DNA of 40,953 nucleotides from a virus, in the IMG/VR virus record IMGVR_UViG_3300025771_000063, positions 1-40,953 of that record; one strand, written 5' to 3'. The position numbers and the translations under genes were made by a program. Position 1 is the stretch's first letter; each line of letters starts with the position of its first letter. The notes under the pieces were generated by a model. That model saw only the letters and a list, made by a program, of their open reading frames with translations, made no database searches and had not been told where the DNA came from. Of this stretch, positions 10,466 to 40,740 are shown piece by piece.

Positions 10466-11209
10466 TTATCCAATCATATCATGGACGGGCAATGAATAAC
10501 TCGTAATCATTTCATCTTCTAACTTATTAATTTCTTCTCTTGCTTCACCTAGAATACGAACACCGTCAAATTGAATTCCTCCTGGAAGTTGAATACCTTG
10601 AAACTTAGATAGATTTTCGCCCCACTGTCTTTTAAATAAAGCAGTCGAATATCTAAGTAACCATCTATCACCCCAAACATCTGTATATGTATTTGGATCT
10701 ACTGTGCGATAACAATCAATGATGATGTATTCATCTACGAGAACATCTGTTTCCCAATCCATATCAATATAAAGTCGATCTGTGTGACGGTTGAAACGAA
10801 TAGGTTTCTTACCAACAAAGATTTCTTCAAGCATTTCTACATGTCTCATAGCGTTCACATAAGGAACATATGAAGCACTAGAAAAATCAAAAAGATCGTT
10901 TAGATGAATTTGATATCGAATATTGAATAGATTTGAACTATTAATAGAATCCCCAATATCAAACACTCTCACGATCCCTTGAATATTTTCTGGGATAGAG
11001 ATGTATTTGTTGGTTTTATCTGAAGAAGTAATTTGATGTTTTAAATAAACATGTTCTGTGCCATCGTAATGATAATCACGATAGTATTGTAATGCTTCGT
11101 CAATTCTATCCTCTAGTTGTTCGTCATCAACGTTGATATCTATAACTGGAGAACCTAGATTTCTAAGGCAATATTGTTTATGTTGTTCTCTGGTCGCAGG
11201 AATAGCCAT
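10466..11209 (-). CDS. 13: Neck protein (gp13-like)
   Basis: This 247-residue protein belongs to the gp13 neck family (T4 309 aa; marine relatives are shorter). It binds the portal and with gp14 completes the head. Typical features are the start PATREQHKQYCLRNLGSPVI, the acidic helix DDEQLEDRIDEALQYYRDYH, the SISIPENIQGIVRVFDI-like segment and a C-terminal helix with GVRILGEAREEINKLEDEM. A late promoter lies at 11238-11245, so gp13 heads the neck-terminase transcript. It stops 3 bases before the gp14 ATG. Confidence 0.95.
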   Translation of the reverse strand: MAIPATREQHKQYCLRNLGSPVIDINVDDEQLEDRIDEALQYYRDYHYDGTEHVYLKHQITSSDKTNKYISIPENIQGIVRVFDIGDSINSSNLFNIRYQIHLNDLFDFSSASYVPYVNAMRHVEMLEEIFVGKKPIRFNRHTDRLYIDMDWETDVLVDEYIIIDCYRTVDPNTYTDVWGDRWLLRYSTALFKRQWGENLSKFQGIQLPGGIQFDGVRILGEAREEINKLEDEMITSYSLPVHDMIG

Positions 11210-11237
11210 AGTACCCTCTTTGTATAAGTCTTATGAC

Positions 11238-11245
11238 TATTTATA
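11238..11245 (-). promoter_or_regulatory. T4-type late promoter for gp13 operon
   Basis: TATAAATA on the minus strand, about 29 nt upstream of the gp13 ATG, in the 48-bp gap after the oxygenase gene. Confidence 0.8.
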
Positions 11246-11257
11246 ATGTTTATATTG

Positions 11258-11959
11258 TTATTGCCATTTAGGTCCACGTAACCAAATAACAAGACTTCTA
11301 CGAATACCATTTGTTACTGGTTTTACTCTATGATATGTAAAAGAAGGAAAGAATAATGCTGAACCTTTTTCTTTAAAGTGTGGTAGTTTAATAGGTTCCA
11401 TTACATTATAACCATCAAGATTTAGTTGTTCTTCACGATTTTCTTCTTTTTTTTCTTTTAATGATAACAACTCAAATTCTCCACCATCATATTCACTAGG
11501 GTCTGTCAATTGAATACTACAACTGATTTTACGAACGGTATTTTTTAGAATATGATCTTCTGGATAATCGGGTTGTAATGTTCTATCATTTACAATGGTA
11601 TCTGTATGCCAGTGATAATGATTTTGGTCACCATAATATATTGTATATTGAAATGGCTCTATAGCAGTAATGTTGTAGTTCCATCCACTTTGTTGATTGA
11701 CATCAGCGATTGTTGGACGAATCATAGAATATAGTTCTTCATTATCATGCCAAGATACTTTGTTCTTACGAATAGTATGATTGGCGTTTTCTGGATTATC
11801 AATACCATATGTTAACGCTTCTTCTTCTTCACTTTTTTCACAAATCTCACGAATACGCATAATCTGTTCAGGCCAGAATAAAGTTTCATAGTACCAATAC
11901 CAATTATTTTCAAATGTAGTTGTTAGAATTTGACCTTCATGACCAATATTTATTGACAC
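11258..11959 (-). CDS. Fe(II)/2-oxoglutarate-dependent oxygenase A
   Basis: This 233-residue protein has the double-stranded beta-helix oxygenase signature: HWHTD gives the iron ligands H118 and D120, YHRV gives H210, and the 2OG-binding Arg is probably R220 or R221 in GIRRSLVIW. These are the prolyl-4-hydroxylase type of enzymes, which hydroxylate protein or small-molecule substrates using Fe(II), O2 and 2-oxoglutarate. It is AT-rich like native phage genes. The protein at 12771-13376 is its clear relative (shared FWPEQ, RKNKV.W, IEP.QYTIY, CS/V.QL.DP..YDG, RGP.W) but is GC-rich. Oxygenases in this slot are familiar in marine T4-like phages; the substrate is unknown. Confidence 0.9.
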   Translation of the reverse strand: MSINIGHEGQILTTTFENNWYWYYETLFWPEQIMRIREICEKSEEEEALTYGIDNPENANHTIRKNKVSWHDNEELYSMIRPTIADVNQQSGWNYNITAIEPFQYTIYYGDQNHYHWHTDTIVNDRTLQPDYPEDHILKNTVRKISCSIQLTDPSEYDGGEFELLSLKEKKEENREEQLNLDGYNVMEPIKLPHFKEKGSALFFPSFTYHRVKPVTNGIRRSLVIWLRGPKWQ

Positions 11960-11960
11960 A

Positions 11961-12668
11961 TTATTCTCCAGACTCTTCAGTTCGTTTTACGATAGAGAAA
12001 CGAATCTTTCTATCATTATCCGTCGTTTCCATTAATTCTTTATAATATTCACTTTTACCAATAGGTTCAATGAATAACTGTTCTCTGCGATCATATGCAA
12101 ACTGTTGAAAAGGACCAAAACAATCTACATAATGTAGAAATAATTGACATTGCCAATCTGTTGTTTTAGGTGGATTAAACTTTTCTCGCCAATGCGGTAC
12201 GTCACATCCACGATAAATCATTGCTTCTTTAGGTTGGACAGAAACAGGCATTCTTACTGTTAAGTCATCTGGATCTGCATACCAGATAGGCCAGTCAAAC
12301 TTCCCAGATTGTCCTAGATTGATTGTAACAGAGATTTCACAAGAAGGTCTATCAGAATGATAGCGTAATTCTTCACCAGGACCATATACACGCATGTAGG
12401 TATATGTGGGTAAGAGTTTTAAACCTGTAAGTTCTTCCATTTTAGGAAGACAATCAACCATTACATATTCACACATAGGTTGTCCATACCAAGCCTTAGA
12501 GTTGATGGGACATTGTGAGTCGTTTAGTTTATTTTCAGTATCTTCTTTTGCTAATTTAACATATTCATCTGAGATAATTTTAGCGACATCGGCGTCTACA
12601 AAGTCATCTACTGCTAGGTATTTCTTCTTTTGAAAATAATATACACCAGCACTATTACGAAGTTTCAT
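11961..12668 (-). CDS. Fe(II)/2-oxoglutarate-dependent oxygenase B
   Basis: This 235-residue protein shows YHSD (H104, D106) and a distal CDVPHWRE (H159), the iron facial triad of 2OG oxygenases, in a context LLPTYTYMRVYGPGEELRYH. The usual Arg about ten residues after the distal His is not evident; the corresponding stretch is DWQCQLFLHYVDCFG, so 2OG binding may use another residue (R161 is a candidate). It is not a close relative of oxygenases A and C. It ends one base before the oxygenase A start and probably has its own promoter at 12688-12716. Substrate unknown. Confidence 0.85.
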   Translation of the reverse strand: MKLRNSAGVYYFQKKKYLAVDDFVDADVAKIISDEYVKLAKEDTENKLNDSQCPINSKAWYGQPMCEYVMVDCLPKMEELTGLKLLPTYTYMRVYGPGEELRYHSDRPSCEISVTINLGQSGKFDWPIWYADPDDLTVRMPVSVQPKEAMIYRGCDVPHWREKFNPPKTTDWQCQLFLHYVDCFGPFQQFAYDRREQLFIEPIGKSEYYKELMETTDNDRKIRFSIVKRTEESGE

Positions 12669-12687
12669 TCATTTTCTCCATTTAAAA

Positions 12688-12716
12688 ATTATACCACATC
12701 ACATTATATATAATAA
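12688..12716 (-). promoter_or_regulatory. Possible extended -10 promoter before oxygenase B
   Basis: The minus strand reads TGGTATAAT (12696-12688), an extended -10 box, about 20 nt before the oxygenase B ATG. A weak -35 (TTATTA) lies 17 bp upstream. The gap is AT-rich, so chance occurrence is possible; if real it allows host sigma-70-type expression independent of the late promoters. Confidence 0.4.
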
Positions 12717-12770
12717 TATTTTAACCAAGGCTACGGATTCCCGAGTGAAGCGTGGGGAACAATACCACAA

Positions 12771-13376
12771 TTATCGCCAAGGTGGACCCCGGAACCAGCA
12801 GACCAGGGATTCCCGTTTTCCGCGGGTCAAGGGCGTGACTCGGTGCATCGCGTTCGACGGGAAACAGACAATCGACCCCGCCTCTTTCGGGAAGGATATT
12901 GGCACGGGGCGAAGCTCATTGTCACGCATCGTGAGCAGTTCGAGTTCGCAGCCGTCGTAATCTTCCGGATCGGACAATTGCACCACACAGGTTACCTTGC
13001 GAATGTTCCCTGTGGGGGCCGCGGTAGATCCGCCTGAATCGTCCGAGTGCCACGTATAGTGATCTTGTGTCTCCCGGTAGATCGTGTATTGCAGGGGCTC
13101 GATCTCGCGGATATCGACGTCCCAACCGGCCGCGCGAAACACGTGATTTTGAATCGGGCGGACAAACCGAAAATCTTCCTCCCGAGACAACCACCGCACC
13201 TTGTTCTTGCGAACATCCGGGCCGTCGCCACCCGAGGTAGATGCTTCTTCCTCCGAGACGTCTCTCGCCAATCGGCGAAGTTCCATGACCTGTTCTGGCC
13301 AAAACCACCGGCGGTGATACTGAAACCAGACCGGGCTATTGATCGCCCCGAGTCCTTGCCCATCGAGCCCAATCAT
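12771..13376 (-). CDS. Fe(II)/2-oxoglutarate-dependent oxygenase C (GC-rich)
   Basis: This 201-residue protein has a complete oxygenase active site: TWHSD (H110, D112), MHRV (H178) and R188 in RGKRESLVCW. It shares with oxygenase A (11258-11959) the motifs FWPEQ, RKNKV, IEPLQYTIY, DPEDYDG and RGP.W, so the two are homologues, yet this copy is strongly GC-rich. It is shorter, lacking the long acidic loop before the distal His. It overlaps the sulfotransferase upstream by 4 bases (ATGA), so it belongs to the transferred cassette. Likely a hydroxylase of an unknown substrate, possibly a virion protein or surface sugar. Confidence 0.88.
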   Translation of the reverse strand: MIGLDGQGLGAINSPVWFQYHRRWFWPEQVMELRRLARDVSEEEASTSGGDGPDVRKNKVRWLSREEDFRFVRPIQNHVFRAAGWDVDIREIEPLQYTIYRETQDHYTWHSDDSGGSTAAPTGNIRKVTCVVQLSDPEDYDGCELELLTMRDNELRPVPISFPKEAGSIVCFPSNAMHRVTPLTRGKRESLVCWFRGPPWR

Positions 13377-14041
13377 ATCATGGGTCGCACTTCGTGAAGG
13401 TTCCGGTGATTTAGCACGTAGCTTGCACCGCTGGTGTCTATGCTCGGTGCGGACAGATCATATCGATGCGGCGCGAGGTCTAAGAACGTCTCTACGTCTC
13501 GCAGGGTATTCTCCGGCTCGCGGATCCAATCCTCATATTCGAGCACGAGCCAACTTTTTGAGCGGATCGCCAGCGATAGCTCCGTCGTTTGAGCAAAAAC
13601 CCGTGCCTTCGAGATGAACTGATCCACCTCTCGTGCATCCATAGTTGATGGCAACGCGTCTCGGAACGATTGCTCTATTTCCGCGAACGGCCGCCGGACA
13701 TAGATTAGCGGTAAGTCTTCCCCGAACACGTCGAGGAACATATTTCGATTGGCCAGCGTGCTCCAGTGCCCGCTTTTGTCCAGCGCAAAAGTCTTAGCGC
13801 TACAGGATCGAAAGAACGCGTCCGCCGTCCCTCGGAAAAACTGAGACATGCCCTGTCTGACTTCAACGGAGGATAGCTCTATCGAAAAATTTCTGTCCGT
13901 GTAGAGTTCGTATTGCCTCCACAACAACTCCACCAAGGGCGACTGAAACGGCACGTACAAATCCGGGTGCTGATTGAGCATGGCGGAGAATATCGTGGTT
14001 CCACTACGGGGCGTACCGGTGATCGCGCCTTTGAGTATCAT
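13373..14041 (-). CDS. Sulfotransferase family protein
   Basis: This 222-residue protein has the 5'-phosphosulfate-binding loop of PAPS-dependent sulfotransferases, TGTPRSGTT at 8-16. The 3'-phosphate-binding element is at 113-126 (IYVRRPFAEIEQSF, with R116/R117 and S125), and a typical C-terminal stretch is VLEYEDWIREPENTL plus FLDL near 166-189. Such enzymes move sulfate from PAPS to hydroxyls or amines of sugars, proteins or small molecules. It is GC-rich and lies between the MAH-type gene and oxygenase C with 4-base ATGA overlaps on both sides, so the three are co-translated. No signal peptide or membrane segment is visible, so it should act in the cytoplasm. Substrate unknown; a fibre, capsule or lipopolysaccharide component are options. 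Confidence 0.88.
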   Translation of the reverse strand: MILKGAITGTPRSGTTIFSAMLNQHPDLYVPFQSPLVELLWRQYELYTDRNFSIELSSVEVRQGMSQFFRGTADAFFRSCSAKTFALDKSGHWSTLANRNMFLDVFGEDLPLIYVRRPFAEIEQSFRDALPSTMDAREVDQFISKARVFAQTTELSLAIRSKSWLVLEYEDWIREPENTLRDVETFLDLAPHRYDLSAPSIDTSGASYVLNHRNLHEVRPMI

Positions 14042-14448
14042 TCCCAGACTTTCAACTGTTCGTTCCAGGTTTTACAAGTGAAGGTTCCCTGTTCCGGATT
14101 ACCTTCATCCGGCATTCCTTTCGGCGGCACCCACCGCGCGATTTTTTTATCCAACACCCACGAAGGGTACGGCTTGTCGCTGTCGAGAAACAGATCTTCC
14201 GCGGCGTCGTACTTCCCGCCCACCCGAGCGAAGTTGCCTCGCTTTGGAGATTTCCCTCGACGATGAACGCCGTTCTTCATGTTAAACGACGTTTGTTTGA
14301 AGGTGTTTTTGCTGCCCGTGACGCGCTGGCAAAAATCGATGCCAATATCTTCGTTCTCCTCGCCAAAAACGTCGAGCGTGTCTTCGTCCGCAACGACGAT
14401 GACATTGACCACATTCCCGTCAGAATCTATTTCCGCAAAGTGAGCCAT
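14038..14448 (-). CDS. Conserved marine-phage protein of unknown function (MAHFAEID type)
   Basis: This 136-residue protein begins MAHFAEIDSDGNVVNVIVV and contains a KRGNFARVGGKYDAAEDLF region, a SWVLD motif and conserved tryptophans. Proteins with this start recur beside fibre genes in marine phages; I know no assigned function. It is soluble and probably beta-rich. The gene is GC-rich. An 8-codon copy of its own 5' end precedes it (14452-14478). Its stop overlaps the sulfotransferase start. It may be a small virion or fibre-associated protein. Confidence 0.8.
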   Translation of the reverse strand: MAHFAEIDSDGNVVNVIVVADEDTLDVFGEENEDIGIDFCQRVTGSKNTFKQTSFNMKNGVHRRGKSPKRGNFARVGGKYDAAEDLFLDSDKPYPSWVLDKKIARWVPPKGMPDEGNPEQGTFTCKTWNEQLKVWE

Positions 14449-14451
14449 CTT

Positions 14452-14478
14452 TTAATCCAATTCCGCTAAGTGAGCCAT
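14452..14478 (-). pseudogene. Vestigial 5' copy of the MAH-type gene (MAHLAELD-stop)
   Basis: The ATG at 14478-14476 overlaps the adhesin stop (TGATG) and encodes MAHLAELD followed by TAA. Three bases later comes the real MAH-type start, MAHFAEID. The two starts match at 6 of 8 residues and nearly all bases. This looks like a recombination scar where one member of the family was replaced by another, leaving the first 24 coding bases. Confidence 0.75.
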
Positions 14479-16205
14479 CAGGGCACCGTGAACGTCCCGG
14501 TTGAGTTGAATTCGTGTATGTAGTGCGTTGGAGTTTGGGTTTTGGTCCCACCCGATATGTCCGCCGGAGCATTTCCATAGGTGGGGTCGTTTTTGGGATA
14601 TCGAACAACCACTTTACCCGAGCCCCCCGCGCCGCCAGGAGTGGAGGGAGAGGTCGCGCCGCCGCCGCCGCCGCCGGTATTCGTCGCCCCCACTTCCGGC
14701 CCGGGCGTCGGGTTCCCGCCGTCTCCGCCGCCACCCGTGCCGCCGACGCCATAGTTAGGATCCCCGCCTGCGCCGCCGCCCCCGCCGCCTGCGTAGTTGA
14801 CCGGCGAGCCCGTGTAATCGTTGGGCGAACCCGCGCCACCAGGACCGCCGCTGTTTGCGGGAGAAGGACCAAATGTTCCCGCGGAGCCCGCGGCCGCTTT
14901 TCCGCCGCCCCCGCCGCCGCCGCCAATGGCCCCGCCGCCGGCCCAACCCGCGCCCGGCCCCCCAGGGTTCCCTTGCCCCGCGACCCCGGTGCCACCGCCA
15001 GTGGGAGCGTACATGGGACCGCCGCCCCCGGATCCACCCGGCACGCCTGTTGACCGAGCGCCTGGATTTCCGCTTCCTCCGCCCCCACCAGCAGACGTGA
15101 CCGGCGCGGGCCCGTGCCCCCACACACTATTTCCTCCAGAACCGCCGATAACATCCGGGGACGAAGCCGGGGGGCCAGACGCCCTTCCCGCAGCCCCGCC
15201 CGCGCCCACGGTGATTGGCACGGGGGAGCCGGGGGCCAGCACCACACCAGTTACCGTCTGCATGCCTCCCGCGCCGCCACCTCCGGCGTAGTAGAACCCT
15301 CCGCCCCCGCCGCCGCCACCGACGATGAGAACGTCCGCGACTATGGTGTTTGGGGGCGCCGCGGCGTTATTTCTTAATGTAGTGAGCCAATTGCCCTCTA
15401 TTCTTCTACCATATACACTACTTTCATCAGTTCCATTAATCGACCAGACACCAGAATTATATTTTCTATCAGGAACTCCGCCAATGAAAGCGGAGGTGGG
15501 TGGCGTGAAATTTGTGGTATATCTAGCGACATCCGATAGCCTCAGATCATCTATATAGCCATTAAGTTCGACGTTGGCGGACAACCCTTCAGCGATACGC
15601 AATCCACCGTCGCCGCCGTCGAGCAAATCCGTGCTGTCCGTGCCGGACCCCCTACTAACGCCGTCAACGTAAATAGTTATGGTCGAGCCGTTCCTAACAA
15701 CGGCAACGTGATACCAAGTCGCTGTTGAAAACGCAATCGTGCCAGTAATCTGGGCGGTGGCGGTCTGACCGTTGTAGGAGTTCCAGACAATGTTATTAAG
15801 GCCGGTGTCCGTGCGTATCAGCCAATTTCCGTTCTTGCCCACGGTGAAATATCCAGCGGAGCCTATAAGCCCCTGGTAATTGGTTGTCGCGTTAAACCTT
15901 ACCCAAAACTCGACCGTGAACGCCCCCGTTCCAAGATCGAACGATGGATGCGCGGGAACGGAAAGATAATCGCCCGTGCCGTCAAACACACCGGATGCGC
16001 CGCCGAATTTACTCTGAGCGGTGTCGACTTGCGCGTTCCCCACCGCCGTCACCGTGTGCTGGTTTATCGAGTTATCGGGGAACGATGTGGAGGTGTCGGC
16101 GCCATCCATGTTCAACAATAGCGCGACACTAGCGCTAGCGGGGGGAAATGTTATTACAGTAGAATTAGCAGTACCGGTGAATTCATATCCTATGTAACGA
16201 GGCAT
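14478..16205 (-). CDS. LamG-domain plus glycine-rich tail adhesin (mosaic gene)
   Basis: This 575-residue protein begins MPRYIGYEFTGTANSTVITF. A concanavalin/LamG-like jelly roll spans about 28-240, with FTVEFWVRF, WYHVAVVRNG, TIYVDG and GYIDDLRLSDVARYTTNF. A linker (244-280, including GVWSING) precedes a long glycine-rich domain (about 284-525) opening DVLIVGGGGGG, and a short C-terminus ends STGTFTVP. Glycine-rich domains of this type form the polyglycine sandwich of tail-tip adhesins such as gp38 of T-even phages. LamG folds bind carbohydrate. The most likely role is host-receptor binding at the fibre tip. Codons switch from AT-rich (residues 1-21) to GC-rich (22-243), AT-rich (244-280) and GC-rich again, with the frame kept. 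It is expressed with the 121-aa gene from a double late promoter. Confidence 0.88.
   Translation of the reverse strand: MPRYIGYEFTGTANSTVITFPPASASVALLLNMDGADTSTSFPDNSINQHTVTAVGNAQVDTAQSKFGGASGVFDGTGDYLSVPAHPSFDLGTGAFTVEFWVRFNATTNYQGLIGSAGYFTVGKNGNWLIRTDTGLNNIVWNSYNGQTATAQITGTIAFSTATWYHVAVVRNGSTITIYVDGVSRGSGTDSTDLLDGGDGGLRIAEGLSANVELNGYIDDLRLSDVARYTTNFTPPTSAFIGGVPDRKYNSGVWSINGTDESSVYGRRIEGNWLTTLRNNAAAPPNTIVADVLIVGGGGGGGGFYYAGGGGAGGMQTVTGVVLAPGSPVPITVGAGGAAGRASGPPASSPDVIGGSGGNSVWGHGPAPVTSAGGGGGSGNPGARSTGVPGGSGGGGPMYAPTGGGTGVAGQGNPGGPGAGWAGGGAIGGGGGGGGKAAAGSAGTFGPSPANSGGPGGAGSPNDYTGSPVNYAGGGGGGAGGDPNYGVGGTGGGGDGGNPTPGPEVGATNTGGGGGGATSPSTPGGAGGSGKVVVRYPKNDPTYGNAPADISGGTKTQTPTHYIHEFNSTGTFTVP
15365..15475 (-). 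other. AT-rich island inside the GC-rich adhesin gene
   Basis: This roughly 110-bp stretch encodes the linker PDRKYNSGVWSINGTDES and EGNWLTTLRN with native AT-rich codons, while both flanks are GC-rich. It connects the LamG domain to the glycine-rich domain. It is probably a conserved fibre linker that served as a recombination point. Confidence 0.75.
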
Positions 16206-16220
16206 TATACAGCCTCCTTA

Positions 16221-16586
16221 TTAAGAATCGTACAATTGTTCGAAAGATATCGTGTAAGATAAATCGTCGTTGGCAGAAGCTGCTCCACCAATTGTTGAAT
16301 TTTCTAACATATAGAAACCACTATTTTTATCTACTGCTACTAACGCGGCGTCACTAGGGACCACAACAGTTTTGATAATAAAGTTATTAGACCCCTGGTT
16401 ATTTAAAATCAAATCAAAATCCGCATTTGCTGCGCCATCGATATTTGTAACTGTTACAGAGTTGATTTTATATACAGCGCCACTAGAAGCTGGATTTGTA
16501 ACAAACACCGTATTGCTGGATATGAATGTGCCTGTGACAGTGTTTGCTAAGATCCTAGCAACGTTTACGATATTTGGATTTGCCAT
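16221..16586 (-). CDS. Small virion-associated protein of unknown function
   Basis: This 121-residue protein (start MANPNIVNVARILANTV) is rich in Asn, Ser, Thr and Val with alternating strand-like patterns and no Cys, as in phage structural beta proteins. The segment YKINSVTVTNIDGAANADFD and the end LSYTISFEQLYDS resemble small proteins found beside fibre genes in marine T4-like phages. No function is known to me. It has two tandem late promoters directly upstream and lies 15 bases before the adhesin, so it may be a fibre-tip adaptor or minor virion protein made with the adhesin. Confidence 0.75.
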   Translation of the reverse strand: MANPNIVNVARILANTVTGTFISSNTVFVTNPASSGAVYKINSVTVTNIDGAANADFDLILNNQGSNNFIIKTVVVPSDAALVAVDKNSGFYMLENSTIGGAASANDDLSYTISFEQLYDS

Positions 16587-16613
16587 TTTATTCCTCTATA
16601 TCTAACTTTCTCA

Positions 16614-16630
16614 TATTTATATTATTTATA
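16614..16630 (-). promoter_or_regulatory. Tandem double late promoter for the adhesin cassette
   Basis: The minus strand reads TATAAATAATATAAATA: two full TATAAATA elements (16630-16623 and 16621-16614) spaced 9 bp apart, 28-37 nt upstream of the ATG at 16586. No other late promoter is visible until 11238-11245, so this pair probably drives the 121-aa gene, adhesin, MAH-type gene, sulfotransferase and oxygenase C. Confidence 0.78.
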
Positions 16631-16635
16631 GTTTT

Positions 16636-18138
16636 TTAACCGAAGACAATAGCCATTGCAATTGCTTTACCTGTTGTTATACCAGCAGACGCCGCGCTTG
16701 TTTGCGTTGAACCATCAGGGAATTTGAAGCCCCCACTGGTGGATTCGATCGTGCCAGCTACTTCTAATAAGTTTGTTGTTGGGGTGCGTCCGATGCCGAC
16801 TTTTCCGTCGGCGACGATACGCATACGTTCTGGTACACCTTCTGGAGTTCCAGAAGCGCCTGTACCAAAAGCAATGCCTTGATTACCGCTGTTATTAAAC
16901 TGCATCCAGCCCATATAAGTTGAGTCAATGCGTTGTTGCAGTCGTGTCGTAGCTGTTGTCCAGTCAGAACCTGCGGATGTGCGAAGCTGACTAATTTCAA
17001 AATGAGACTCGTTGGAGCCGGGTCTACCTTCAATATTTACGTTGACTTGCTGGTCATTGGCAGAAGACCCAACACCATTACTATCCAAAACATGTAGCTG
17101 TGCGTCGGGCACACTGTATCCAATGCCAACTTTTCCGCTGCTGTCGATACGAACGCGCTCTGCTCCAGAAATACCCAAGGCTAAATATGGACTTCCAGAA
17201 TTATAAGCACCGCGAATGAATGCAGCATCGTTATCACTTGGTGAACCCCAAAAAATATAACCACTTCCAGTATCATTTGTTAGTAAACTCATACCCATAT
17301 TGTCAGTGTTTTCAATCACAAAATCATCACCAAGGGTAGAAGCTGTAACGGCTCCTGCGCTTCCACTGAAAACATGCAACTTGCCATCAGGAGAAGAAGT
17401 GCCGATACCGACGTTACCAGTAGAGCCCTTGATAGTCAAGACAGCGTCAGCGTCCGTAACTTCGGTCGCGTCTGCATCATAGTTGCTGCAGAAGTAAGTG
17501 TCACCACCGCCGTACGCAGCGAACCTTTCGTGAATAATAGCAAACTTCGCTACGCTGTTATCCTCGGGGCTAACGCCCAACTTTAGAGCGGCTGAAGCTC
17601 CTCCCGTCCCGTCTGGATTGCTAACGAGTAGGCTAGAGGTGTCACCGACAGTAGCTCTGTTTATATGTACGAACTGGGCGGGAGACGACGTTCCGATGCC
17701 GGTGTTGCCGCTGCTATCGATGCGCATACGTTCTGTGTTATTTGTTAGAATGATTAACGGATGATTGGTTTCTGTTCCAATCTGTGCAAGTGCTCCCGCA
17801 GCAGCGATATCGAATTTTCCAACGTATGTCCCGCTCTGTGCTGTAATTTTTAGTCCTGAGCCACCAGCGGTGCCATTGTTGGTTTGCGTAAGGAACGTGA
17901 CGCCGGCGTCGACCGATTGCGTTGCGGAGAGAGTACCGTTGTCTGCAATAAGTACAGAAGAATCTTGCGCTAATCCACCGCTTGTACCATCAAACCGCAT
18001 AACAGCATTGTCTGTAGAACTACCAGGATTTGCAACAAACCCAGCAGAATTTGCAGCCAAATCCTTAATAGTATTGACATTATACATCATCTGATTGATG
18101 GTGTTAGAGCCGGTCAATGTAGAAACTGGTATAGACAT
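16636..18138 (-). CDS. Tail fibre protein with GIGT repeats
   Basis: This 500-residue protein carries four related motifs: ERMRIDSSGNTGIGTSSP at 136-153, a version ending NVGIGTSSPDGKLHV near 242-256, ERVRIDSSGKVGIGYSVP at 327-344 and ERMRIVADGKVGIGRTP at 437-453. It ends near a GGFKFPDGSTQTSAA box (469-483). These repeats and the FPDGSTQ box are common in tail fibres of marine phages, where they build a trimeric beta shaft. The N-terminus (MSIPVSTLTGSNTINQMMYN) should attach to the virion. Codon use is less AT-rich than in the baseplate genes, suggesting some exchange. It has its own late promoter at 18171-18178. The exact fibre position is unknown. Confidence 0.85.
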   Translation of the reverse strand: MSIPVSTLTGSNTINQMMYNVNTIKDLAANSAGFVANPGSSTDNAVMRFDGTSGGLAQDSSVLIADNGTLSATQSVDAGVTFLTQTNNGTAGGSGLKITAQSGTYVGKFDIAAAGALAQIGTETNHPLIILTNNTERMRIDSSGNTGIGTSSPAQFVHINRATVGDTSSLLVSNPDGTGGASAALKLGVSPEDNSVAKFAIIHERFAAYGGGDTYFCSNYDADATEVTDADAVLTIKGSTGNVGIGTSSPDGKLHVFSGSAGAVTASTLGDDFVIENTDNMGMSLLTNDTGSGYIFWGSPSDNDAAFIRGAYNSGSPYLALGISGAERVRIDSSGKVGIGYSVPDAQLHVLDSNGVGSSANDQQVNVNIEGRPGSNESHFEISQLRTSAGSDWTTATTRLQQRIDSTYMGWMQFNNSGNQGIAFGTGASGTPEGVPERMRIVADGKVGIGRTPTTNLLEVAGTIESTSGGFKFPDGSTQTSAASAGITTGKAIAMAIVFG

Positions 18139-18170
18139 ATCTTTATCTTTTCTCTATTATCTATTTTATC

Positions 18171-18178
18171 TATTTATA
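18171..18178 (-). promoter_or_regulatory. T4-type late promoter for the 500-aa tail fibre
   Basis: TATAAATA on the minus strand, about 33 nt upstream of the ATG at 18138, in the 92-bp gap after the glycine-rich adhesin. Confidence 0.78.
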
Positions 18179-18230
18179 TAGAATTTAATTAGGTACATCA
18201 ATATTCATTTTTATAGTTTTTGTAGTAGTA

Positions 18231-19166
18231 TTATACAAAATTGTATGTTCCATCTGGATTAAACGTAATTGTATGTGCTGTATCATTTGATATATTAAGA
18301 TTTGTATATGGTTGAGTGTTTGCATTAAGTTCACTGATACTTTCATTGAATTGGACAAACACAGCACCATTTGCATTACCAGGACCAAGAGAATATATTG
18401 GTGAATATCTAGTTCTTCCTTGAACGGTATTGCTTGAGTAGTGATATGGGTGCGTCGTGTTTGCAAAACCAGAACCACCTCCACCGCCTTTACCGTTGTA
18501 CGGCGGCGAGCCAGGATCAGCAGTGCCGCCGCCGCCACCGCCACCGAAGTAACCGCCGCCCCCGCCGCCACCACCTTTAGGTCCTTCAGGGCTTGGTGGC
18601 CCAGGAAATCCTGATCCACCCGCGCCGCCTACAAGATATGCACCAGGACTTCCTGGTGTTGCTCCAGCAGATCCAGTACCACCGGCTGCTTGTGTACCAC
18701 CTCCAGAGCCACCGGGTTGTGTTTGACCCACAGTACCACCTCCAGCGCCACCGGTGCTTGTAGTAAAAGAGAGTTCGAGCCCACTTACAGTACCGCCTTC
18801 GCCACCTGAACCCCCAACAACAGCAAGAAGATTTGGTTGAAAGGTAATTGGAACTGAAGCGCCAGGTGTGGGAACTGCTGATGTAGCTAATATAATACCA
18901 CGACCACCAGCACCACCGTTCTTGCTGGGGCTCCCCGGTCCACCCGCCGCCGCTGGTGTTGTTTTAATTGAAAGTGTTTGATCTGCAATATTTTGCAAAT
19001 CCATAACATATTCTGTAGTTCCACCCTGCATATAATCTAAAGTGGGTGCTGGCGCGCCCGGCGAAAATGTTCTACCTTCTCCTAGAAGAACAATTTTTAC
19101 CCATCCTTGCACACCACCAACACCAGAAAATCCACCAAATCTTCCAACTAATGTATTAATAGACAT
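18231..19166 (-). CDS. Glycine-rich tail adhesin
   Basis: This 311-residue protein has a compact N-terminal part (MSINTLVGRFGGFSGVGGVQGW, then WVKIVLLGEGRTF), a glycine-rich middle (about 70-235, with runs GGGGGGGG) and a C-terminal strand region ending HTITFNPDGTYNFV. The glycine-rich part resembles the polyglycine receptor-binding domain of gp38-type adhesins. Unlike the adhesin at 14478-16205 it has no LamG domain and its glycine codons are mostly GGT/GGA. It follows the 329-aa fibre by 3 bases and is probably its tip protein. It is the second adhesin of this general type in the window. Confidence 0.8.
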   Translation of the reverse strand: MSINTLVGRFGGFSGVGGVQGWVKIVLLGEGRTFSPGAPAPTLDYMQGGTTEYVMDLQNIADQTLSIKTTPAAAGGPGSPSKNGGAGGRGIILATSAVPTPGASVPITFQPNLLAVVGGSGGEGGTVSGLELSFTTSTGGAGGGTVGQTQPGGSGGGTQAAGGTGSAGATPGSPGAYLVGGAGGSGFPGPPSPEGPKGGGGGGGGYFGGGGGGGTADPGSPPYNGKGGGGGSGFANTTHPYHYSSNTVQGRTRYSPIYSLGPGNANGAVFVQFNESISELNANTQPYTNLNISNDTAHTITFNPDGTYNFV

Positions 19167-19169
19167 ATC

Positions 19170-20159
19170 TTATGTACTCAAACTTCCTATTAAATCCCAT
19201 TCATCTGTATCTACCTTTTTACATACCGCCGTCTGCCACTGATTTCTAACACGAAGTTTACCACCATCACTATTTACAATAACACCAGCAGCATTAGAAA
19301 ATTGAAATGCTGAGTTAGAACCAGTCCGAACAAAAAGATATTCAGAACCAATAGGAATAGAAGTTGTAGAATTAGCAGGAATAGTTATACCAATTGTAGT
19401 AGAACCACTTGCTGTTGTATTAGCGTAGTCTAGACGATGATAAAAACCAGCATCAGCCGCAAGTAATGAATAAGAATTTGATGTAGTTGTTTTTACTGGC
19501 GCACCTAATCTGAATTGATTAGTAGAAGTGAAATTATTATTAGAAGCAAGAACAGGAGCCGCTGCCGCAGTTGCTGCAATATAAGCATTTGTATTTGCTA
19601 GTGAAGATCTTTCAGTTGCCGCAGTAGTTGCAATATAAGAATTAGTATTAGCAAGGGCAGAGTTAAATGTAGTAGTATTTACTTTAGTAGCAATATAAGC
19701 GTTAGTATTTGCTAATGCAGACTGAAACGTACTATTTGATACAGCACTACCTATAGACTGAAACTGTATCCAACCACTTACAGTATAACCCTCAAACGTA
19801 GAAGTAGATGTATTATATCTAAAATGTCCTACACTATTATGAGCGGCTCTTTGTGCGGTCGTTCCAGATGGTACTTTAACTGCACCAGTAGATGTCATCG
19901 TCAGATTACCACTAATTTTCACATTTGACGATAGTATATTTGTATTTACTACACTAGCCGCAAACGTAACAACATTTCCAGAAAATGTACTATTTCCACT
20001 TAAAGTAATAATGTTTGTGAAAGTAGCATTAGCGGATGTTACTTGCGCTACTCCAGTAGTATTCGCAAGCTGATTGATAAAATCAACTGTATCGTTTGTA
20101 CGGACTCTCCAAGCATTAAATGATTGTGTAAGTTCTACGTTTGCAAGTCTTTGTGGCAT
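19170..20159 (-). CDS. Tail fibre protein with ANTNAYIA repeats
   Basis: This 329-residue protein starts MPQRLANVELTQSFNAWRVR, an N-terminal attachment type seen in marine-phage fibres. A beta-rich shaft follows, then TTAQRAAHNSVGHFRYNTST and FEGYTVSGWIQF, a common fibre module. Repeats of LANTN(A/S)YIA occur at least three times near residues 145-200. The C-terminal domain includes YHRLDYANTTASGST and IPIGSEYLFVRTGSNS, typical of a beta-sandwich tip ending in WDLIGSLST. The ANTN repeats match those of the collagen-like fibre at the left edge. It shares one base with the small coiled-coil gene upstream. Confidence 0.82.
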   Translation of the reverse strand: MPQRLANVELTQSFNAWRVRTNDTVDFINQLANTTGVAQVTSANATFTNIITLSGNSTFSGNVVTFAASVVNTNILSSNVKISGNLTMTSTGAVKVPSGTTAQRAAHNSVGHFRYNTSTSTFEGYTVSGWIQFQSIGSAVSNSTFQSALANTNAYIATKVNTTTFNSALANTNSYIATTAATERSSLANTNAYIAATAAAAPVLASNNNFTSTNQFRLGAPVKTTTSNSYSLLAADAGFYHRLDYANTTASGSTTIGITIPANSTTSIPIGSEYLFVRTGSNSAFQFSNAAGVIVNSDGGKLRVRNQWQTAVCKKVDTDEWDLIGSLST

Positions 20160-20375: not shown

Positions 20376-23300
20376 TTACACCTGTAAGGCTATAGCTCTT
20401 AAATCTCTCACTCTTGGTACAACATGAGAACCTACTGAAGATCTTAGAACAATCTTAATGGAAAAATGTTTGAAAGTATCAAATGCAGCGCCATCACCAT
20501 TATGATATCTAACAACATCATTATTACCACTATTTTTAAACGCACCCAAATTACTCGCATTAGCACTTGGGAATCCATATTCAAATTCTCTATAATCAAA
20601 AGTATTCACTCTACTAGAGATTGTATTTGCAGAAGTAGTCTGAGTTAGTTTAGTATAATGTTTATCAGAGAAATCATCAGGATCTTCTGCATTTTGAATA
20701 CGACAATATACATCAACTTCTGTACCAGAAGGTTTGTAAGCGGTCAAGATTACTTTAATATCTTCAGCTTCTTGACCATCCGCAAGAACAATCTTCTTAG
20801 AAATATATCTTGAATTAGCTAGTCCTTGATTTATAATTTCTTTTGTATTGACATTATTAATAATATTATGAGTAACAATCGCTGATCTAGAACGACCAAT
20901 ATCAACTACTGGTGACAATCTACTTGTTGAAGATGTTAAGGAACCAGTAATTCGTAAAGTCTTCTTAGAAGAAGTATTATTTACTTCGTTTGTTCTACTA
21001 GCAATAATCTTTTCACCCGTAATGAATTCATTGTCTATGAAAGCTTCTACACTATCTTGCGCTTGACTAATAACATATGTATTAGAAGTAACATTAGCTG
21101 TCCATACTACATCACTCTGATTGTATTTGATATAAGATATGATGGGTTTTAATGTATCATACTTATAGTCTTTTAAACCATATACTTGTGCTGAGGCGTT
21201 TGTTACTTGACCACGATAGAAACCATCATCAGCGGTTGTATTTGAACTAAATGTACCACTTGAACCATTAGCAACGATTGAATTTCTACCCGCTGAATAA
21301 TATTGTACGAAACCAGTAGCAGTATTCACTACCGAGGTATTTAATACACCAGTAAAAGATCCACTACCATTAGCAAAGGTTATTGTAGAACCATCAGCAA
21401 TAGTACCTTTCATATCAACTTTAATCCATGGAGTATTATTGGCTGAAACAATCTTACGAACTTTACCAGTGTTTGCACCAAGAGTTACTGTATCATTAAC
21501 ACCAATTGGAGCAGTGTTCGAAGTCATTTTTAGAATACTTTCACCACGAATTTTTTCACCAATTTGGAATCTAGTTGAAGAGAATTGTGTAGCATTCATA
21601 TATTCATCATCTTCGTTTGTATATACGACGCTACCAGTTACGGTAGTATCAAAGTTTGCTCTCCAGATAGTGAAACAAATATCTTGATTTTGTCTTGGTG
21701 TGTATGTTCTATCGTTAGCAGAAGTAAACATAACACCAACAGCGGGTTGTTGATCAATTAACGCACCCGTTACAGTATCAATACCACCCAGTTCTGCGAT
21801 CCAAAGACGATAACTAGGATCTGAACCTTCTGGTTTGACAACAAAACAATACTCTTTATCACCGCGTAAATATACCGGTTCATCAAAATAGAATGGAGTT
21901 ACAAGAGAACCATCATTTGAAACGTTTACATCTTCTGGATTAATTCTCTTGAAACCAAATGGTACACGAATACCAGTAGGTGATCCATTTACAACTTCTC
22001 TAATTTCTACAGCAATGCCAGCCGTAGTACTTTTTTCAGCGAAATACAAATCTATACAAGAGACAAAGATACCATCTGCGCCATTACCGAACTTATTGTC
22101 TGTGAAGTTTAGATTTTGGAATTCAAAATCTCCTATAGAAAACGATTGTGCTACAGGATCTCTATGTAGTTGTAAGCCTTCAAATTCACTAATTGTTACT
22201 GTATTTGTTTCGCTAGTTGTATCTGTAGTAATTCTTGCTTCTCTAGTAGTAAGTTCAATACCTCTTTCACTACTAGCAAGACCAGAAGAAATAAAGTTTT
22301 TAGTAGCACTAGTTGTTTGAGTTCCGTCTTGTGTGGTTGTATTAGCGATATCTTGTAGTTTGAATGGACGCTCACCGACTCGGAACTTTAATGTATCGTT
22401 GTTTGGAATAATAAAGACACCATATACAGCACCATTAGCGTTTGTATTCAGAGCCGCTTTAAAGGCACCAGTATTTGCATACTCTTTTGTAGTTGGTTTG
22501 ACGTAATCATTCACGAGAATATTATCAAAATAAGGATATACGCGAGTATTTGGTCTTAAACCAGTTGCTGTAAATTGTACTTCACGAGATCTCATGAATG
22601 GAACAATATCTGTTCTTGTGATAAAAGCGCCAGTTCTTTGTGTTCTAGTAAATGGTTCTACGTTAATTCTAGTTTTAGTTATTGTTTCTGTTTGTGTAGA
22701 TGTAACCTTAACATCATCGAGTGCACTATGGGCGTCGGCGAAAGTACCAAAGTCTAACCCCGCAGGTGGTGTAAAGTCTACATGAGCAACACCACGCACT
22801 TCTCTAGTTGTATTTACTGGACCTCTAGCAATATCGCTAACTTGAGTAAATCCATCTAGTCCTTGAAGACTACTTGCGATATCTACTTCCAACTGAACAT
22901 CAGGTTCTGTAGTTGTATCAACGAAATGATCTGCTTCAGGAATAAGATTTAGATTACCAACCCAGTTAAATGTTAGTTCTCCGACTGGATTGATAAGTTT
23001 AGATGCATATGGTTGATCAATATAGATATCATTGGTATAAGGTAGGGTTAACAAAGCTCCTGGTTGTGAAGTTTGAACGGCAGAAATAACACCAGTGTCA
23101 GCATCACCATTTCTTTTTAATGTAGAAGATACTGTAAATGTACCTGTTGTATTATGCAAGTACAATCTTACATTACTAGTATTGGAAACTACTGATCTTA
23201 CAGTACCAGTAGCAGTGGCTGAACCAAAACTACTACCTAAGTATACAACATCATCATTTTGATAAGAGTTAGTATTAGAGGAAAGATCTAATCTAATCGC

Positions 23301-26300
23301 TTTATTTTTATTTGTAACATTCGTTGATAGTGTTGTATTATAAGCAATATCAATATTTTGTAAATCATACTTAGGTATAAGTTCACCTAGTTTAGTATTC
23401 ATAGAGATAGAATAAGCGGGATCAGTAATATTAGAATTGTCTGTTCCAAAGAAGGAATCCACAAATATACCGTTCTTAAATCTATCTAGACCATTACCAT
23501 CAGGAACATTTAAATCTCTTGCAGATTTTTCTAGAATATTAAGAGCAGTATAATATTCTAGTCTATCTATACGACTTTCAATCCCAGAGATATCTTGCAT
23601 AGTATATCTTCTCTGGAAGAATGGTTTTACTCTTACAGCAAGATCTACTCTTGGTGAATCAGTTTGAGGATCTTTATATGTTAATGCGTTTTCATAAGAT
23701 AAGGAAGGATATGCAGGAATGTTTAGTAAGGCGATAGTCATAACCTCTGCTGGTTCTGCTGGAGGATATGCTTTTACTGCTGGAATACCTTTGACAACCT
23801 TTTTTGTACCATTTTTACCAATAACGACTCTATCAACTCTTGGAAGATAGTAAACAACATCAGATGTGAAGTTTTTATCTGGAACAGGCACATATGAACC
23901 ATTTGTACCATCAATATCAAGAGTTGTTGATTCTGCTGGATTAACAGCCGAGTTTACTAATGTAGTTAAGTTAGTATTAGAAGCACTCGTTACGCGAGGA
24001 CGGAAGTCTAAACTATCTCTCAAATCATAAACTTGATTTGTTGTAGTTGAAGAAAATCTTGGAATTTGAGGAGTAGTAATAGCAGTAGTATTAGCCGTAG
24101 ATTCATTGGGATCTATTGAATAAGAGTCTACACTAGAAAATCCAATACCACCTGATCTGTTGTGTTCGAAATAATCAAATTCTACTACAATTCTATCAGT
24201 CGTTTTTAGTACAACATCACTTGTTGGTTTTATCTGAAGTCTTGAAGTACCATAAATGTTGTCATTAGTGTTTCTCCAAATACGAAATTCTTTTACTAGA
24301 TTTCTATTTTGAGTGTTATAGGTTGGACCTACATATACCGCACGTAGATTAAAAGCGTCTGCAACACCTAATGACCATGGACCAGCAATTCCTGCACTAT
24401 GTGTAGATAAATCAAGTCTGATAAATCTATTTTTTCTAACAGTTTTAGTTATACCAACAGCGGTTTCTCTCTTATTATTAAAGAAAAGAGTCATGGTTGG
24501 GTTTGTAGTAAATACTTCTTGTAAATCAAAGGTTGCTTCAGTCGTAGAAGTAACAGTTACAGTTCTTTCGGTGGGACTACCATTATTAGTACCATTCTCT
24601 GTTAGATCAAATATGTGTCCCTGTGGGTAAATTCTGTATATATTCTGTGGTGTGTCGTCGTTTGTAGTACCATCAATAGTAGGATTAGTTGTAAGAGTAT
24701 TAGCACTATCGATACTTACAATTCTACCATAATTATTTGCATTACCAATAGTAACAAAATCACCTACTGTAAATAATGTATTAAAGTTTGTGCCAATACC
24801 ATTTAATGTATTCGCGCCATGTTGAATACTACCAGTAAATCCAGCAGTAGCATTAATAGTCGATTGAGTCATAAGAGTGAAAGTTCTCTTATTTGAATCG
24901 TTTAATGCGCCGACACCAAAAGGTAATTCTTCTGTACCGCCAGGATGCACACCACTTAATGTTAGACTAGCAGTACCTGTTGCACCTGTGAAAGATAGAC
25001 TTGCTTTATCTTTGAATTCATAACTAGCATTTACAGTACCTGAAGTGGTGCTCAACTGTTTTGTGGCTGTAGTGCCTAGTTTCCAAATCCCCTTATTAAA
25101 ATCAGCGTCTTTTAATACAGCAATTGTTACCGTCGCGGCGCTGCTACCACCACCTGTTGTACCAATTGAAACAGTTTCTAATACAGTATCTGCTGAACTA
25201 TCAGGACCACTAGGATTATTAATATAAAGAGATCTAACATCACCAAAAGATTTGTTAGATGCAGTCATCTTTATATCAAATAGATATAATCTATATCTTG
25301 CTGTATAATTTCCTTGAGAACCAGATTCCCATTCAATACCGCGTACTTTTGCTGTACCAATCTCTGAACCAGCAGCCGCGGCCGCGCCAAGTGTGCCAGA
25401 AGACACAGCCGTTCCAGCAGTATCTCTAAGACTTACACTAGAATATTGTGTCATATCCCAAGGGCCACACAATTCATTTACAATAACATAGTTACCAAAA
25501 TTAGTAGTTACGGTGAGTGATGTTTCTGTGTTTGTGGTAATAGCTTTGGTTGTTTCAATGTACTCAGTAGTTAGTGTTTCATTACGATAACCTTGAATAT
25601 ATGCAATACCCGGTTCGATACCAATGGCAAGTTTATTCTTATCTCCGCCTTCACCAGAGGAAAATCTACCAAAGTTTGAACCAGTATTTAAATGCTCTTT
25701 TACTTGAGCATTAATTTGTCTTAACTGATAGTTACCAGATTCTTCGTAAGTTCTTTTTGCTAGTTCACGAGCAATACTATTAAATTCAGTATCTTTCTTA
25801 ATAATCTGGACGTTACCATTTTCCACTTTAAATAATGGTAATAGATTTTCTGTATTAGAAGTATCAGTAAGTCTTCTTTTTACTAGATTAGGTGTTAGCT
25901 TTAAACGGTCTGCGCCTGGAGCCGTATAGTTATAAGAACCAGTGGCATTATCAAGTAATGTTGTATCTGTTACTGATGTTACGATACTTTCGACAGTCTT
26001 AAATCCAACTTTATAAGAAGGTGTGGTAGAATATTTTTCTAAAATAATTACTTGTGAGTCTACATTAATAAAATGACCTTTTTGGAATATGATACCGTCA
26101 CCTGTATGAAAAATACTACCAAAACCAAAAGCACCAGAAGAGATAGTATTTGCTCTTTGTCCAGAACCACCATCAGCAGGTAGATATACTAATTCTTCAT
26201 TTAAATCAAAAGTTTTATGTACTTTATCAGTACCACCGTCGAGATATTTAACTATAAATGTATTGTAGTCTGGTGCATCGACTTCTGCGCCAGAAGCAGT

Positions 26301-26648
26301 AGCAATAACTTTAGCGCGAACTCCAGAAGTTACACCTTGTATTGTAACATTAGCAAAAGTAGAAACGGTTACTGTGTTACCACCTGAGTCGTTATCTCTT
26401 AACTTTACAAAAGCGACGTTAGCATCATATTGAAAATCACAACCATCGATAACTGTTCCGTCTTTGTAAATATTATCACCAAATCTAGCTACTTGTTCTT
26501 GTAGAATAGTTTGAAGCTGTGTAAGTTCACGAGTTTGGACAGCAAGACCAGGCTTAAATAAAATTCTATGATAGTCTTTTAATTTAGCACTAGTTTCGTA
26601 GTCATCAAAATAAGGTGAAACATTAAAGTTTGTTTCTAATTTAGCCAT
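20376..26648 (-). CDS. Giant baseplate/tail-fibre-connector protein (DUF4815-like N-terminus)
   Basis: At 2090 residues this is the largest protein here. The N-terminus (NVSPYFDDYETSAKLKDYHR, LFKPGLAVQTRELTQLQTIL, then FGDNIYKDGTVIDG) is a conserved start of large structural proteins in marine T4-like phages, which I associate with DUF4815. The rest is a series of beta-rich Ser/Thr/Asn modules without membrane segments; a conserved region near residues 1100-1180 includes FFQRRYTMQDISGIESRIDR. It lies directly after gp8 where T4 has gp9-gp10-gp11 and fibre genes, so it probably forms the outer baseplate or anchors the fibres. A TATAAATA element within gp8 (26772-26779) could serve it. The gene symbol is left open because no clear T4 counterpart is visible. 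Confidence 0.8.
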   Translation of the reverse strand: MAKLETNFNVSPYFDDYETSAKLKDYHRILFKPGLAVQTRELTQLQTILQEQVARFGDNIYKDGTVIDGCDFQYDANVAFVKLRDNDSGGNTVTVSTFANVTIQGVTSGVRAKVIATASGAEVDAPDYNTFIVKYLDGGTDKVHKTFDLNEELVYLPADGGSGQRANTISSGAFGFGSIFHTGDGIIFQKGHFINVDSQVIILEKYSTTPSYKVGFKTVESIVTSVTDTTLLDNATGSYNYTAPGADRLKLTPNLVKRRLTDTSNTENLLPLFKVENGNVQIIKKDTEFNSIARELAKRTYEESGNYQLRQINAQVKEHLNTGSNFGRFSSGEGGDKNKLAIGIEPGIAYIQGYRNETLTTEYIETTKAITTNTETSLTVTTNFGNYVIVNELCGPWDMTQYSSVSLRDTAGTAVSSGTLGAAAAAGSEIGTAKVRGIEWESGSQGNYTARYRLYLFDIKMTASNKSFGDVRSLYINNPSGPDSSADTVLETVSIGTTGGGSSAATVTIAVLKDADFNKGIWKLGTTATKQLSTTSGTVNASYEFKDKASLSFTGATGTASLTLSGVHPGGTEELPFGVGALNDSNKRTFTLMTQSTINATAGFTGSIQHGANTLNGIGTNFNTLFTVGDFVTIGNANNYGRIVSIDSANTLTTNPTIDGTTNDDTPQNIYRIYPQGHIFDLTENGTNNGSPTERTVTVTSTTEATFDLQEVFTTNPTMTLFFNNKRETAVGITKTVRKNRFIRLDLSTHSAGIAGPWSLGVADAFNLRAVYVGPTYNTQNRNLVKEFRIWRNTNDNIYGTSRLQIKPTSDVVLKTTDRIVVEFDYFEHNRSGGIGFSSVDSYSIDPNESTANTTAITTPQIPRFSSTTTNQVYDLRDSLDFRPRVTSASNTNLTTLVNSAVNPAESTTLDIDGTNGSYVPVPDKNFTSDVVYYLPRVDRVVIGKNGTKKVVKGIPAVKAYPPAEPAEVMTIALLNIPAYPSLSYENALTYKDPQTDSPRVDLAVRVKPFFQRRYTMQDISGIESRIDRLEYYTALNILEKSARDLNVPDGNGLDRFKNGIFVDSFFGTDNSNITDPAYSISMNTKLGELIPKYDLQNIDIAYNTTLSTNVTNKNKAIRLDLSSNTNSYQNDDVVYLGSSFGSATATGTVRSVVSNTSNVRLYLHNTTGTFTVSSTLKRNGDADTGVISAVQTSQPGALLTLPYTNDIYIDQPYASKLINPVGELTFNWVGNLNLIPEADHFVDTTTEPDVQLEVDIASSLQGLDGFTQVSDIARGPVNTTREVRGVAHVDFTPPAGLDFGTFADAHSALDDVKVTSTQTETITKTRINVEPFTRTQRTGAFITRTDIVPFMRSREVQFTATGLRPNTRVYPYFDNILVNDYVKPTTKEYANTGAFKAALNTNANGAVYGVFIIPNNDTLKFRVGERPFKLQDIANTTTQDGTQTTSATKNFISSGLASSERGIELTTREARITTDTTSETNTVTISEFEGLQLHRDPVAQSFSIGDFEFQNLNFTDNKFGNGADGIFVSCIDLYFAEKSTTAGIAVEIREVVNGSPTGIRVPFGFKRINPEDVNVSNDGSLVTPFYFDEPVYLRGDKEYCFVVKPEGSDPSYRLWIAELGGIDTVTGALIDQQPAVGVMFTSANDRTYTPRQNQDICFTIWRANFDTTVTGSVVYTNEDDEYMNATQFSSTRFQIGEKIRGESILKMTSNTAPIGVNDTVTLGANTGKVRKIVSANNTPWIKVDMKGTIADGSTITFANGSGSFTGVLNTSVVNTATGFVQYYSAGRNSIVANGSSGTFSSNTTADDGFYRGQVTNASAQVYGLKDYKYDTLKPIISYIKYNQSDVVWTANVTSNTYVISQAQDSVEAFIDNEFITGEKIIASRTNEVNNTSSKKTLRITGSLTSSTSRLSPVVDIGRSRSAIVTHNIINNVNTKEIINQGLANSRYISKKIVLADGQEAEDIKVILTAYKPSGTEVDVYCRIQNAEDPDDFSDKHYTKLTQTTSANTISSRVNTFDYREFEYGFPSANASNLGAFKNSGNNDVVRYHNGDGAAFDTFKHFSIKIVLRSSVGSHVVPRVRDLRAIALQV

Positions 26649-40738: not shown

Positions 40739-40740
40739 AG

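Follow-up and report, generated by a model that had tools for sequence, protein, structure and literature searches.

The DNA analyzed here (the window) is the whole of IMG/VR virus record IMGVR_UViG_3300025771_000063, 40,953 bases, and represents a T4-like marine phage of bacteria: it encodes a T4-type portal gp20 together with neck, sheath stabiliser, baseplate wedge and terminase genes (Pfam Portal_T4 2e-181 and DNA_Packaging; phrogs), and its TerL shares at most 60% identity with those of cyanophages and the Melnitz phage. Our subject is a block at 12729-16154, rich in guanine plus cytosine (GC), that carries adhesin domains and three smaller genes and sits in a hypervariable island between the gene for a long virion protein (20376-26648) and the neck genes. 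The genes of this cassette and the spacer adjoining them are as follows.

14478..16205, minus strand: adhesin, 575 aa, made up of an anchor, a Laminin_G_3 domain (LamG; PF13385, 5.6e-26), a linker and a Gly-rich C-terminal domain (PF21722, Gly_rich_2, 2e-12)
14038..14448, minus strand: p136, 136 aa, of the phage-only family phrog_7759 (PHROG 1.3e-31)
13373..14041, minus strand: sulfotransferase, 222 aa (Sulfotransfer_3, PF13469, 1e-11), with intact motifs (TPRSGTT; R117/S125) for binding 3′-phosphoadenosine 5′-phosphosulfate
12771..13376, minus strand: 2-oxoglutarate (2OG)-Fe(II) oxygenase, 201 aa, PKHD/PiuC-like (PF13640, 7.1e-14; PKHD-type hydroxylases in the PDB, 1.6e-7)
12669..12728, minus strand: native AT-rich spacer, starting with GGTTAA and identical to that of the related contig L018 save 2 bases at 12674-12675

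Pfam and PHROG searches agree with the gene calls of an initial annotation made from the letters alone (adhesin, sulfotransferase, 2OG oxygenase and small conserved protein). Its claim that overlapping start and stop codons couple all of these genes holds for two of the three joints (ATGA at 14041-14038 and 13376-13373), but the adhesin and the 136-aa protein are separated by a 29-bp gap (adhesin stop at 14478, next start at 14448).

The GC content per kb is 0.51-0.67 in the block, 0.31-0.36 in the immediate left flank and 0.43-0.48 in the immediate right flank. At fourfold-degenerate sites, GC reaches 0.67-0.76 in the four cassette genes, compared with 0.09-0.24 in backbone genes and 0.25-0.33 in the adjoining fibre genes (16221-19166). 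With backbone usage as the model, the mean synonymous-codon log-likelihood is –1.6 to –1.9 for the cassette and –0.8 to –1.15 for the backbone. In tetranucleotide usage the block lies at a distance of 0.81, and the highest of 156 backbone windows of equal length reaches 0.30; with base composition corrected for, the block has 0.83 and the backbone maximum is 0.41. All of these measures bear out the jump in GC and the shared G/C-rich codons described initially, although the AT-rich side has a mean GC of 32-35% rather than the quarter then given. The composition supports the view that the cassette material is foreign, and a source of higher GC is very probable.

The high GC might instead be a mere by-product of encoding a Gly-rich protein in native genes, as GGN codons raise GC and Gly-rich adhesins of sibling phages reach 0.54-0.57. 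However, the sulfotransferase, oxygenase and p136 genes, none of them Gly-rich, fall in the same 0.67-0.76 range of fourfold-site GC, and the Gly-rich domain of the sibling L021 has just 0.23. This explanation is therefore left with a negligible probability, and third-position composition refutes glycine content as the sole cause.

The block is heterogeneous. Adhesin codons 244-278 (about 15372-15476) have a low GC of 0.36, and alignment with siblings divides the gene into four parts, for which the fourfold-site values below rest on 10 to 235 sites each.

16155..16205, minus strand: native N-terminal anchor, codons 1-17, MPRYIGYEFTGTANSTV; identical to L021 save one base, fourfold GC 0.10
15477..16154, minus strand: foreign Laminin_G domain (slot 1); fourfold GC 0.67, not in the sibling adhesin L021:2679-3617
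15372..15476, minus strand: native linker, 35 codons, VPDRKYNSGVWSINGTDESSVYGRRIEGNWLTTLR, between the two foreign domains; GC 0.36, fourfold GC 0.29
14478..15371, minus strand: foreign Gly-rich C-terminal domain (slot 2), Gly_rich_2; fourfold GC 0.71

Judged by composition and alignment, the adhesin is thus a chimera of a native anchor and linker with two foreign domains, and the proposal that the block moved as one transferred unit is not supported as it was put. Over 15369-15498, the linker is 73-83% identical in nucleotides to those of siblings L021, L037, L041, L044 and L049. The same constant parts recur in other arrangements: anchor, linker and Gly-rich domain in L021, L044 and L049, anchor, LamG, linker and LamG in L037, and anchor, linker and LamG in a second adhesin of L021. 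Fourfold-site GC of the siblings is 0.00-0.39 in constant parts and 0.49-0.61 in some variable parts (for example, 0.21 in the L037 linker, 0.61 in its second LamG and 0.59 in the LamG of the second L021 adhesin). Since some variable parts of siblings are also high in fourfold GC, foreign composition at the adhesin slot is recurrent and not peculiar to this phage.

A screen of viral contigs with the flanking genes identified these siblings, phages from other metagenomes that are 97-100% identical in the neck region. They define both edges of the block at base level. Downstream, L018 and L016 follow the window from the downstream gene to base 12728 and diverge immediately after it; upstream, L021 matches through adhesin codon 17 (16155) and then diverges. 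The edges proposed initially, 12728 and 16141, lie within 15 bases of the sibling-derived 12729 and 16154. At the start of the spacer, the bases GGT TAA end the reading frame of a different adhesin (374 aa) in L016 and L018, as its final codon and stop, and the same six bases in the window may be the footprint of a replaced adhesin allele. Because L021, L016/L018 and L046/L019 share the flanks (sibling nucleotide identity 95-100%) and carry different adhesins in this slot, the foreign material replaced other content between kept flanks, as the initial annotation had supposed. We are highly confident that this block arrived by allele exchange, as one of the alleles of an exchangeable host-recognition cassette.

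A misjoin of a high-GC contig into an AT-rich phage contig would give a similar picture, and the Gly-rich stretch is evidently hard to assemble, because two related contigs end within it, at 15201 and 15183. However, L047 includes the entire cassette together with its two junctions and shows zero cassette mismatches, and L038, L014 and L020 cross the downstream junction, again with none. In the flank at 11060-11798, L038, L014 and L047 differ from the window at 1, 6 and 8 positions, respectively, and so represent three haplotypes. Going by IMG sample number, these contigs derive from several metagenomes, although some may be re-assemblies of one sample. Moreover, other alleles are joined at the same edges in L016/L018 and L021, and the genes are co-directional and in frame through the native anchor and linker. 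An assembly chimera is thus very improbable. The initial annotation had named broken read coverage at both junctions, or close relatives of the same composition throughout, as outcomes that would speak against it; among contigs, L047 is identical to the window across the two junctions, and high GC throughout is not seen in close relatives.

Import of the entire 12729-16154 segment, linker included, from one high-GC phage in a single step would account for the codon bias common to all four genes, and no cassette mismatch separates the contigs. The linker is nevertheless low in GC and 73-83% identical to sibling linkers, and the donor would need this lineage's linker in its low-GC form; we regard a one-step import as unlikely. 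No enzyme that might have mediated the exchange was found at the locus. Pfam detected no integrase or transposase among the scanned window proteins, including all in and beside the cassette, and Pfam and PHROG detected no recombinase or homing endonuclease among the cassette genes. Between the two edges, a search for repeats or att-like sites, direct or inverted, found no match longer than 7 bp. The initial statement that neither integrase nor transposase is present is upheld by these searches. In phages of 59% GC (L007:4394-4981, also L006, L008 and L009), a GIY-YIG/NUMOD3 homing endonuclease gene lies between the p121 gene (described below) and RCC1-type adhesins. It lies at the boundary equivalent to the cassette start in the window, where such an enzyme could drive exchange.

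The source of the cassette was sought through its enzymes. The cassette oxygenase is sister to the clade of this lineage's resident oxygenase (support 100/99), on a long branch, and the closest sulfotransferases (30-32%) sit in AT-rich phages, one of which, L025, is a relative of the window phage. On these grounds, the donor was probably a related T4-like phage with a higher-GC genome, which is simpler than a distant phage. The initial proposal of a higher-GC phage origin is therefore retained as far as the foreign composition goes, but a distant donor is less likely than a higher-GC relative, and phages of ~30% GC carry this gene set as well. That the donor phage had a higher-GC host is an inference. 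A sulfotransferase donor search in genome contigs returned a single partial match, 25 residues in a Colwellia metagenome-assembled genome, and in phage collections the search gave no relative but S-SKS1 at 22%.

Both enzymes keep their catalytic motifs, as read from alignments. The sulfotransferase scores 46 bits against the PF13469 cut-off of 27, with TPRSGTT and R117...S125 seen in the alignment, and weakly resembles polyketide and tyrosine sulfotransferases. In the PKHD-type oxygenase, H110, D112, H178 and R188 are invariant, so that the HxD...H iron ligands and the 2OG-binding Arg are kept. The function of phage sulfotransferases remains unclear (PMC10580990). The p136 family has >500 relatives in viral contigs. 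Its AlphaFold2 model is confident (predicted local distance difference test score, pLDDT, 91.4), and comparison with the PDB gave no fold match (best E 2.1) and no sequence match; in BFVD, matches at E < 0.001 are solely uncharacterised phage proteins. A role as a known tail-fibre assembly chaperone (Tfa/gp38-like) was considered and rejected, as fold and sequence searches were negative and only adjacency to adhesins favours the idea.

The gene set recurs elsewhere. Gene order was compared around the p121 and p136 families, and a second search used the sulfotransferase sequence alone, thereby avoiding selection on the adhesin. In L032 (IMGVR_UViG_3300031701_000159, 62% GC), a Gly-rich adhesin, p136, sulfotransferase, 2OG oxygenase and second 2OG protein follow one another in the window's order (Pfam), so that the search for the same gene order suggested initially was answered by a 62%-GC phage contig. 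L339 has the recurrent set in the window's order; L251 (31% GC) has adhesin, p136, 2OG oxygenase and sulfotransferase; and L341 (about 30% GC) has the same set with the oxygenase not detected. The sulfotransferase-only search yielded 28 deduplicated loci, with p136 within 150 bp in 10/28; within 2 kb, 13/28 have a Gly-rich open reading frame (ORF) and 7/28 a 2OG oxygenase. Densities per 10 kb, nearer and farther than 2 kb, were 1.10 and 0.22 for p136, 1.30 and 0.44 for Gly-rich ORFs, and 1.20 and 0.00 for 2OG oxygenases. Independently, among the two genes that follow p136 downstream in other phages, 2OG_Oxy_3 occurs in 12/107 cases vs. 1/108 distant controls (Fisher p = 0.001) and Gly_rich_2 in 14/107 vs. 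1/108 (p = 0.0003), these p-values being rough as the controls were not deduplicated. Only the p136 adjacency is highly specific, tail genes clustering anyway. Adjacency of p136 and sulfotransferase, often with the oxygenase, spans unrelated phages of 30 to 66% GC, and because the associated enzymes fall in at least 2 sulfotransferase clades, the link does not reflect one recent inheritance.

Taken as a whole, the account we favour, and consider probable, is that of an exchangeable host-recognition allele of higher-GC origin whose enzymes would be linked to the adhesin. Exchange would have proceeded by ordinary phage recombination at short conserved footholds (the 51-bp anchor, the about 105-bp linker and the spacer), with a related phage of higher GC as donor, in one or more steps and possibly in two or more. 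The adhesin would set host range and p136 would serve it in assembly, capping or presentation, while the oxygenase and sulfotransferase would accompany the adhesin because they act on it or on the surface structure that it binds. That the enzymes are functionally tied to the adhesin is, from gene order, somewhat favoured. That they modify the adhesin itself is a tentative suggestion, and that they modify the host receptor or envelope a rather doubtful one; both readings predict co-inheritance. The more specific idea of a portable receptor-binding module, in which a Gly-rich adhesin travels with a dedicated p136 of unseen fold and with a hydroxylase and sulfotransferase that would modify the adhesin tip post-translationally, is speculative and on balance improbable; if true, a host-range swap needs the modifying enzymes swapped as well.

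The enzymes may alternatively be ordinary auxiliary metabolic genes, in the island by chance and unrelated to the adhesin. The island is known to gather metabolic genes and glycosyltransferases (PMC7029224), the latter being proposed to modify the host surface (PMC7029224). Roughly half of the 28 sulfotransferase loci, moreover, lack both p136 and a Gly-rich ORF in their vicinity. Against chance stand the recurrence of the p136-sulfotransferase adjacency across those unrelated phages and clades and the repetition of the window's gene order in L032 and L339, and we consider such an origin possible but the less likely one. The loci lacking both neighbours also count against the account we favour, as do further results. 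No high-identity donor was found, the best matches being about 41-45% (oxygenase) and about 32% (sulfotransferase), and among relatives with the neck gene the highest-GC locus has 46%. The adhesin domain contains 8 Pro-Gly motifs vs. 11.2 expected, and sibling adhesins likewise show no excess. Pro-Gly (X-Pro-Gly) is the target of collagen-type hydroxylases, and the absent enrichment speaks against collagen-type prolyl hydroxylation of the adhesin.

The Gly-rich domain resembles the tip adhesins of gp38 type in T-even phages, with a repetitive Gly-rich C-terminal domain (Gly_rich_2) and variable segments between glycine runs. Exchange of gp38-type Gly-rich tail-fibre tip adhesins is expected to alter host range. 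Unlike T-even gp38, the window adhesin has a Laminin-G domain and its own anchor; it gave no sequence match to solved gp38, and its AlphaFold2 model is poor in the Gly-rich region (mean pLDDT 50.5 for the whole adhesin, usable for the LamG part only).

The best relative of the LamG domain is in phage DSL-LC04 (OR003939, a Gammaproteobacteria phage), where a p136-family gene likewise has a 2OG oxygenase and a concanavalin/LamG adhesin as neighbours, but the gene order and the phage type in the region are different and no sulfotransferase is annotated in the stretch. Pelagibacter phage HTVC008M (KC465899) similarly has a cluster of 2OG and phytanoyl-type oxygenases beside the neck gene, with the oxygenases on the strand opposite to the neck genes and no sulfotransferase annotated in the stretch. 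L032 differs in phage type, its protein identity to the window is only about 28-40% and no LamG domain was found in it.

The host recognition cluster (HRC) beside the neck gene gp14 is a published island of pelagimyophages and cyanomyophages (PMC7029224). Like it, the locus studied here is a hypervariable, non-syntenic island among structural genes, ends at gp14 and contains genes of tail-fibre type with accessory enzymes; the site varies among siblings, a neck gene lies at 10466-11209, and the VrlC end was inferred to be the 20376-26648 gene (2090 aa, phrog_358, to which no function is assigned). That paper emphasizes glycosyltransferases and gradual divergence (PMC7029224), whereas in the window near-identical phages allow the exchange to be located to the base, apparently via constant segments inside one adhesin gene. 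Exchange at the host-recognition island is itself of a known kind in T4-like phages, and the gene set is the less expected part. Here the exchange can be read base by base, and the native anchor and linker mark the joints of the foreign domains. The hypothesis raised by the recurrent set is that phage sulfotransferases may serve host recognition rather than host metabolism. We found nothing on point in the literature on phage sulfotransferases with tail fibres or on sulfated tail fibres, and no description of a base-level two-slot adhesin or of the recurrent four-gene set in a small literature search, with most subscription journals outside it.

The cassette is flanked by the following genes.

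11258..11959, minus strand: AT-rich gene for the resident 2OG oxygenase, which shares 39% identity with the cassette enzyme
11961..12668, minus strand: resident 2OG-type protein beside the cassette (PHROG ‘ferrochelatase’, phrog_2954), conserved among siblings
16221..16586, minus strand: conserved 121-aa protein beside the slot (p121; MANPNI...), with at least 556 relatives in viral contigs
16636..19166, minus strand: two more fibre genes whose ends are conserved and whose centres have been exchanged, a second mosaic zone of intermediate GC

In this second zone, L021 matches the window at 16151-16830, 17893-18187 and 19115-19369 (95-96%) without a match in between. Siblings L021 (5490-6332), L030, L037, L041 and L044 have an extra adhesin of the anchor-linker type adjoining the neck gene; the window has no adhesin in this second exchange slot. 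Away from the island, a collagen-repeat protein, cut by the window end, is encoded directly downstream of the portal gene (1-1389). Near the right end and distant from the cassette lies a small gene of T5orf172/GIY-YIG type (39158-39430), and at the window end a YdcK-type beta-solenoid repeat protein (VSGDAVVTGNA...) is encoded at 39983-40753, with a strong GC skew.

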